From Bacillota bacterium (GTDB taxonomy: Bacteria; Bacillota; Clostridia; Saccharofermentanales; Fastidiosipilaceae), in assembly GCA_030057555.1 (NCBI GenBank), contig JASGUU010000041.1, positions 1-40,939 on the forward strand: a stretch of DNA of 40,939 nt. Reading direction: 5' to 3'. Below, piece by piece: positions 17,830-37,494 of this stretch; within the stretch, counting starts at the first letter, position 1, and each line of letters starts with the position of its first letter. The position numbers were made by a program, and so were the translations under genes. The notes beneath the pieces are model-generated. The model saw nothing but the letters and a program-made list of their open reading frames with translations, ran no database searches and was not told the DNA's origin.

Positions 17830-18045
17830 CTGACCAGCAGTGAATTCCGGTGGTCAAAACAGGCCAAAAACGTTTTGGCTTACTCGCCATCCTGACCACA
17901 AAGGGGCCGTTTCTGGTCAAAACGAAGAGAAATCCAAAAAATGTTTTGGAAAAGTCCCTATCTTGACCACAAAGGGGCCGTTTCTGGTCAAAACGAGGAG
18001 TTATCCAAAAAAACATTTGGATTACTCGCCATCTTGTCCACAGAG
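17830..18045 (+). repeat. 71-bp two-hairpin repeat, tandem block B
   Basis: Units begin at 17830 (62 bp, variant), 17892, 17963 (exact 71-bp period) and 18034 (truncated). Each full unit has hairpin 1, TGACCA/TGGTCA, and hairpin 2, which differs between units but stays paired: GCCAAAA/TTTTGGC, TCCAAAA/TTTTGGA, ATCCAAA/TTTGGAT. In the first unit the arms of hairpin 1 are kept but the loop is unrelated. Between units lies either TTACTCGCCATC or AAAGTCCCTATC. Matches block A at 109-210. No gene was found in 17797-18464. Confidence 0.85.
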
Positions 18046-18242
18046 ATACGACAAGTCCGGGAAATGTCGGACCCACCTTTATCATGCGGCATCAGGGAAA
18101 CAGAACCCTGGATCGTTTCACAATCTTTGGAACGTGCCAGGTCTTGCCAGTCAGCCTCACTGCCCGCTATCCTATTCCTATCCCCTTCACATTCCGGCCG
18201 TTTATGAGGCTGGCCGTTACGCAGGCAAATGGAGAGAGGATC

Positions 18243-18348
18243 TTCCATATGCCTGCATGCAAGCTGCGCTAAAACTCCGGTGTTTCAAGTGTTTTAAGAA
18301 GGCTCAAAAAGGTTTTACTTTTCCGACACATATGACAACATGCACCCC
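18243..18348 (+). repeat. Conserved ~107-bp tail, copy B
   Basis: Aligns with 265-373 across its length, with shared blocks TTCCATATGC, TGCAT, GCTGCGC, GTTTC, GTGTTT, GAAGGCTC, CCGAC, ATATGAC and TGCA. It lies ~200 bp after the tandem repeats, farther than in copy A (~55 bp), so the intervening 18046-18242 is an insertion here or a deletion there. Confidence 0.65.
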
Positions 18349-18399
18349 CAAAATGGAACTTATATGATCTGCAGGGTGCCGGACGTGTGTTTTATGCAG

Positions 18400-37240: not shown

Positions 37241-37494
37241 TGGACAAAAAAGTCGCTGGTGCCCCGAAATCGGGGCAGGAACGGAAAATTTGGCCATGGC
37301 TGGACAAAAAAGTCGCTGGTGCCCCGAAATCGGGGCAGGAACGGAAAATTTGGCCATGGCTGGACAAAAATGACGCTGGTGCCCGTAAATCGGGGCAGGA
37401 ACGGAGAATTTGGCCATGGCTGGACAAAAATGACGCTGGTGCCCGTAAATCGGGGCAGGAACGGAAAATTTGGCCATGGCAGGACAAAATGTCG
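37241..37494 (+). repeat. 60-bp tandem hairpin repeat, four copies plus a partial
   Basis: Copies start at 37241, 37301, 37361 and 37421 with an exact 60-bp period; a fifth begins at 37481 and decays. Each has a GC hairpin (GCCCCGA/TCGGGGC in copies 1-2; GCCCG..CGGGGC, less paired, in copies 3-4), then AACGGAAAATTTGG, and the palindrome GCCATGGC. Copies 1 and 2 are identical; copies 3 and 4 share other substitutions, so duplication came in two steps. On the minus strand, the direction of the surrounding operon, each hairpin is followed ~10 nt later by a T-run, terminator-like. 37495-37643 shows nothing. Confidence 0.9.

Follow-up and report, generated by a model that had tools for sequence, protein, structure and literature searches.

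A 71-bp tandem hairpin unit is very probably a module of a genus-restricted, MITE-like mobile element and is entered by a group II intron

The 71-bp repeat found in the stretch of Bacillota DNA analysed here (40,939 nucleotides in all, hereafter the window) is very probably the tandemly repeated module of a mobile element that is confined to one genus, non-autonomous and MITE-like, and that resembles BOX in its layout. The element has inverted-repeat ends and target duplications, is dispersed and intergenic, varies in its number of units, and shares its core with a second shell. Terminal inverted repeats, target-site duplication and the absence of a transposase of its own, the marks of a MITE, were all found. 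This mobile-element nature was missed in the initial annotation, and the data can be explained without invoking a function for the host or as RNA. The genome from which the window comes (G000, 90 contigs totalling 2.9 Mb) was compared with that of one sister species of the same genus (G001). Site counts are minimum values, and copy numbers are lower bounds because several G000 contigs (C15, C38, C44, C21, C41, C87 and others) end within the intron or at the second shell.

The exact 71-bp step initially reported between units, at 17892, 17963 and 18034 and again at 121 and 192, was confirmed. TRF assigned the window repeat a period of 71 with 2.3 copies and 82% matches, and a 23-nt piece of the unit (up to 3 mismatches) occurred three times in the window versus never in 100 shuffles. 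Two hairpins per unit had been proposed; a conserved hairpin is indeed present, but the unit is more simply described as one long imperfect hairpin of 55 nt plus a 16-nt spacer, with position i opposite 53-i of GGTCAAAACGAAGAGTAATCCAAAAAACGATTTGGATTACTCGCCATCTTGACCA. This register is simpler because arrays start at GGTCAAAAC and stop at TTGACCAC, and because the six shortest elements consist of one long hairpin each, thus without the proposed first hairpin. The arms listed for the second hairpin are as initially written, except that the fourth pair requires a G.U. The supposed first hairpin with an unrelated loop at 17830 is very probably a chance match, its TGACC being found at that place in 0 of 39 other copies' left ends (8 truncated left ends excluded).

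The window contains two copies of one kind of element, both on the forward strand. The first (109-370) is cut by a group II intron that terminates at position 108. The contig starts inside this intron, whose 3' end occupies 1-108, with an Rfam RF00029 match at 24-108 (51.9 bits versus a gathering score of 40) and the intron end GACCTGTCTACTCGAC at 93-108. Next comes the remnant of the intron-split hairpin unit at 109-127 (3' exon AAAGTCCCCATATTGACCA), with a junction identical to 8 other intron 3' ends, followed by a hairpin unit at 144-198 and the right part at 199-370, which has an internal gap relative to other copies (right-end query matches at 198-230 and 239-365) and an inverted repeat at 349-370. 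In the second copy, a shortened first hairpin unit of 47 nt (17852-17898) precedes two units of 55 nt at 17915-17969 and 17986-18040, the latter with the 3' arm variant TTGTCCA. The right part of the main shell follows at 18042-18349, matched by the right-end query at 18081-18336 and retaining an inverted-repeat remnant at 18323-18349. It adjoins the right end of the second, IS1634-like shell at 18350-18389, whose inverted repeat at 18374-18389 now forms the right end of this copy; its own left end, upstream of about 17840, is inferred to be missing.

Complete elements of the main shell run from a left end of about 97 bp through one to seven hairpin units to a right end of about 315 bp. The left end opens with GGGGGTGCACGTCAAGAATGTCGGGAAGCGGG and leads into GGTGGTCAAAAC; the right part often opens with a GC-rich palindrome and has the consensus terminus TCCCGACAAATATGACGTGCACCCC. 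The two ends are inverted repeats, GGGTGCACGTCA...TGTCGGGA. With up to one mismatch, the end pattern GGGTGCACGTCA occurred 64 times in G000 versus 9 for the reversed control, and 60 versus 9 times in G001; the remaining GGGTGCACGTCA-like end matches looked like chance and were set aside. A left end was located for 47 elements of G000, 35 of which have both ends, and it is across these 35 that the hairpin count (loose pattern) ranges from 1 to 7. The right-end query matched at least 40 places in G000 (best 40 of 87 candidates scored).

Insertion is accompanied by target duplications of about 9 bp. In a scan using the end pair from 29 of the 35 G000 elements and 8 of 9 G001 elements, flank identity reached 0.55 to 0.56 at the best offsets, whereas 100 permutations never exceeded 0.454; two of the 29 rows, L055 and L066, lie in the second shell, and all 29 were taken as independent. 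Clean 9-bp duplications flank L166 (CATCCAGAA) and L174 (GGCGGTCAC), and most others are imperfect. Our own crude gene caller predicted no gene inside any of the 47 elements. A transposase with GGGTGCACGTCA ends was not found in the genome stretches examined, and none of 17 IS1634-family loci searched for inverted repeats had main-shell ends. An IS1634-family transposase remnant in G000 (L111, contig C42) is bounded at 886-902 and 2763-2779 by perfect 17-bp inverted repeats, ACCCACATTCCGCACCC, of another end type with a GGGTGC tip.

The same hairpin core also occurs between the ends ACACGTCCGGCACCC and GGGTGCCGGACGTGT of a second shell, which the sequence suggests is an IS1634-like relic with duplications of about 6 bp. 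A longer left flank is common to ten copies, and at least 29 matches of that flank were found in all. Five of seven second-shell copies examined have 6-bp duplications (L246, CTGGAC; L260, TCTCAG; L077, GTACAG; L059; L055), and none was seen in L255 or L078. The left part of the shell shares 60-67% DNA similarity with an IS1634-family transposase locus of G001, L124, matching the start of the transposase and the sequence that follows its end. In some copies much of the middle is lost and the hairpin core lies inside (L246, L260). Scanned against NCBIfam, three translated frames of the relic gave no match, so the IS1634 link rests on the similarity to L124 and on the frames themselves, which we take to resemble the IS1634 family. 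The occurrence of one hairpin core in two transposon shells gives this element part of its interest.

Shells and cores do not seem to be fixed partners. Among 43 G001 arrays lying away from contig edges, 31 have at least one known end and 12 have neither, which implies that more shells exist or that ends have decayed. In G001, tandem hairpin arrays of other kinds were also found within the main shell (L160, L161, L171). A plain internal-deletion MITE would not predict unrelated arrays in the same shell, and the main shell seems to carry differing array cargo. A family of 60/61-bp tandem arrays with a similar layout (TGGNCA arms and an inner GCCCCG...CGGGGC stem) is present in the window at 37241-37489; members occur in G000 and G001 alike, some of them next to or within the main shell (L058, L139, L152, L154, L171, L172, L173). 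Further arrays, of 92 bp, 70 bp and the GTTGTGTCA type, lie in or adjoin GGGTGCACGTCA-ended shells (L161 2585-2862, L150 4100-4420 and L160).

The element is numerous within its genus and restricted to it. The initial expectation of many dispersed copies was upheld: a short spacer-and-arms pattern (up to one mismatch) matched 96 times in G000 and 268 times in G001, and a 321-base query found at least 86 matches in G000 (best 40 of 100 candidates scored). Confinement of the copies to the two window sites, which had been named as a refuting outcome, is thus excluded by dispersal through two genomes. In ten other genomes of the family the short unit pattern had no match; the reversed control of this pattern gave 0. 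Across 84,980 species, the exact pattern matched 63 stretches, of which 'Bacillota bacterium MAG87_KBP' (JASGUW01) accounts for 61; the single hits outside that MAG, L190 and L202, resemble coding DNA and were rejected. An exact 32-nt pattern had no match outside the genus, and the plasmids and viral contigs searched had none. Covariance model R1, scanned under stricter filters with 26 candidates scored per genome, hit three genomes among the 188 from the order. Two of them, G000 and G001, scored strongly, while the third genome's one weak match (E 3.5e-4) was a lone palindrome and was discarded.

Within G000, all 47 elements lie outside genes as predicted by our own crude hexamer script. In raw counts, the 39 elements flanked left and right by called genes lie between divergent genes in 15 cases, tandem genes in 19 and convergent genes in 5.

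Pairing within the units was assessed on larger samples than the window offers. In 136 units from 53 arrays of G000, the foot and the upper stem (CCAAA/TTTGG) were nearly invariant, and the variable arm positions were 15 to 17 versus 36 to 38. These varying arms pair no better than shuffled ones: pair 16-37 was formed in 58 of 136 units (shuffled mean 70.5) and pair 17-36 in 75 of 136 (shuffled mean 81), neither showing covariation. Whole-array permutation gave 372 paired cells versus 384 expected, and compensation in the next-unit register was absent. The initial annotation had argued from four window units that hairpins changed in a compensatory manner and that paired substitution implies selection on structure; the larger G000 sample supports neither point and serves as a caution that four stems matched by eye can mimic covariation absent from a larger sample. 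An apparent anti-correlation between neighbours (25 and 30 of 76, under all 500 shuffles) came from unit shuffles rather than array permutation. We do not claim it, because the same-unit deficit vanished under whole-array permutation, where a fraction of 0.11 gave values as low as the observed one or lower. Units are more similar within an array (0.906) than between arrays (0.867).

Hairpin conservation is borne out chiefly in the sister species, by swaps of whole stems between unit classes. The main stem classes among 319 oriented G001 units were CCA/TGG (187), GGC/GCC (71) and ACA/TGT (38), which sometimes adjoin in one array; 40 units of uncertain orientation were dropped. Pair 19-34 was kept across classes in 281 of 282 distinct units versus 0.48 when shuffled, and the class-defining pairs are invariant inside each class. 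Of 148 sampled units, 132 were aligned and 16 left out; in this alignment 77.5% of cells were paired, compared with 71.1 in shuffles and at most 45.3 when slid, and 253 cells were double-changed versus 153. Columns 20/35 were paired in 131 of 132 units (CG 76, GC 30, AU 25). Neither the pairs showing a double change (12 versus 13.6 shuffled) nor the further pair types (29 versus 32.6) were more numerous than in shuffles. The covariation anticipated for a larger alignment was absent from the variable arms of G000, and in G001 pairing was kept through class-wide stem swaps.

With so few class-wide swaps, the palindromes can be said to be kept or renewed, while the mechanism is not revealed; a few founder events or palindrome-correcting template switching may be the sources. 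The latter corresponds to a neutral account, in which template switching between the arms during replication lets them correct each other and produces paired changes without selection. Pairing that is kept between classes and not tuned within them agrees with it, as do arms that look exchanged between orientations in L271, L272 and L285. Mismatched arms (TTTT with ATTA) nevertheless persist across a whole array in L019/L046, indicating that arm correction is not efficient, and we regard neutral maintenance as possible but doubtful. That the stem classes keep their pairs leaves room for selection on structure.

One form of such selection would act on RNA: the arrays would be transcribed and their hairpins would serve as processing sites, a protein sponge or an attenuator, hence the preserved stems. 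The pairs kept through class swaps, including columns 20/35, are compatible with this, and the fold of the 191-nt window array is more stable than those of 200 shuffles. This holds, however, for both strands (z -5.2 and -6.9), as for any inverted repeat, so that no strand is indicated, and none of the findings on the arrays is strand-specific in a way that would favour RNA over cruciform DNA, the other form initially proposed. The variable arms of G000 without covariation, the unraised counts of double-change pairs and further pair types, a hairpin number ranging from 1 to 7 and flanking genes in all orientations also speak against a structured RNA, and no Rfam family covers the arrays at gathering score. 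A free-standing RNA family was rejected too: within the window Rfam identifies only the group II intron, the weak MIR5380 and mir-942 matches being far under their gathering scores. We therefore judge the RNA reading improbable and retain that of a mobile-element module.

The hairpin units are themselves entered by a second mobile element, since every mobile group II intron found in G000 sits inside a hairpin unit and none was found outside one. Nine domain V matches (RF00029; L271-L279) and nine places with the intron-start pattern (L281-L289) were identified in G000, the 5' and 3' ends being counted separately and unpaired, as the assembly is interrupted within the intron. Every one of the nine 5' flanks ends in TCCAAA-loop-TTTGG and then C (8) or A (1), and all nine 3' flanks continue after the intron end with AAA[GC]TC and then the right arm of the hairpin unit. 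The insertion point is thus constant, just after the upper stem at TTTGG[CA]|AAA, at 9 of 9 3' ends and 9 of 9 5' ends. In the arrays of L271, L272, L285, L287 and L289, hairpins appear to be inverted or to have recombined with respect to the spacer, and many units carry the target TTTGGCAAA[GC]TC.

Domain V and a reverse transcriptase/maturase identify the intruder as a group II intron. The protein, read from one copy (L290), scored 387 bits against TIGR04416 (cut-off 300) and contains RVT_1 and GIIM domains. Its nearest solved proteins, the GsI-IIC RT and other group II proteins, LtrA included, have near-equal scores, and the protein consequently does not settle the intron class. Class IIC is the group II class known for hairpin targets. 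A hairpin directly upstream of the insertion is present at 9 of 9 G000 5' junctions; domain V, however, opens with GAGCCC, read by eye as AGC, where PMC7923331 gives a CGC catalytic triad for class IIC, and the intron accordingly does not look like a member of that class.

The exon ends in TTTGGC, six bases that comprise the 3' strand of the upper stem and one base more; their complement, GCCAAA, is present in the intron. Exon bases further upstream vary by site and are only A/T-rich, so that no IBS2 contact stands out. In 738,644 strand-bases, TTTGGCA was counted 41 times outside the hairpin context and 12 times within it. Such frequency outside hairpins, set against introns present only in units, suggests that the intron reads more than seven bases, for which a longer exon sequence and the hairpin would both be suitable. 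The constant placement makes it testable whether non-IIC group II introns can use a hairpin instead of the IBS2 contact.

An intron this faithful to its target raises the alternative that the arrays are maintained as landing pads, with the intron retrohoming into structure-recognised hairpins and co-evolving with the array. Both the single insertion point shared by the nine 3' and nine 5' ends and the match of the exon end to the upper stem and to GCCAAA would follow from it. The flanks TTTGGC|AAA[GC]TC could be recognised by sequence alone, and G001, with more arrays, has no domain V (RF00029) match, so the intron is not required for arrays to persist and spread. The one start-like match in G001, the tenth in all, has 2 mismatches, lies outside any unit and was rejected. 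We consider landing-pad maintenance rather unlikely.

A CRISPR or integron-like (attC cluster) array is hardly credible. The spacers are conserved 16-nt pieces, too small for cassettes, and most arrays lie inside transposon shells. By reading, the consensus of the 132 units lacks the GTTRRRY/RYYYAAC pair, taken here as the attC end motifs. Tandem hairpins with fixed spacing and inserted group II introns do recall attC sites as presented in PMC7923331, which gives the motifs as RYYYACC/GTTRRRY.

As the MITE-like element that we favour, copies would be moved in trans by a transposase recognising the ends, and unit number would shift through slippage or unequal recombination, with some homogenisation within arrays. 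The palindromic arms could extrude as hairpins in single-stranded DNA and would be kept or renewed as palindromes. In G000 the group II intron would use the hairpin units as its landing site, and by landing there would make the arrays serve as safe intergenic targets. A bolder extension, which we offer tentatively, is that a non-IIC group II intron lands exclusively in the transposon-borne tandem hairpin, which it recognises by structure, that the core is exchanged between unrelated shells and is itself selected, and that intron, shells and array form a nested mobile community in the intergenic DNA of one genus.

By title or abstract start, no paper on these elements was found among the best matches in the open-licence literature, from which we do not conclude that they are absent from print; searches there with the end sequences and record names gave only unrelated papers among the best matches. 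Described systems nevertheless offer parallels. The BOX elements of Streptococcus are hairpin-forming, dispersed repeats of the form boxA-(boxB)n-boxC; PMC3049150 reports that they are overrepresented between convergent genes and that in S. suis two end pairs (A/C and E/F) carry the same boxB modules. Our element likewise has two different ends, variable tandem modules, hairpins and dispersal, and places one core in two shells, as boxB is placed in the two S. suis end pairs. It differs in its 71-bp unit, its ends of about 97 and 315 bp with inverted repeats of their own, its duplications of about 9 bp, its other Bacillota lineage and the group II introns in its hairpin units. The likeness is one of layout (end, tandem core, other end), and we set the element beside BOX by description and claim no membership. 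With MITEs derived from insertion sequences it shares inverted repeats, target duplications, high copy number and no coding capacity seen, whereas it differs in a core made of tandem hairpins in varying number and in a second shell that is an apparent IS1634-like relic.

REP palindromes, described in PMC1525189 as specific targets of insertion sequences, are similarly repeated extragenic palindromes targeted by other mobile elements; their guests are insertion sequences rather than a group II intron, and the units here are tandem and shell-borne. Group IIC and IIC-attC introns also insert directly after or into a hairpin, but they have CGC in place of AGC and the target here is a MITE-borne hairpin. 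A closer parallel is the group IIB intron reported in PMC7923331 just after an attC site. With this element, the BOX design is seen again in a different lineage.
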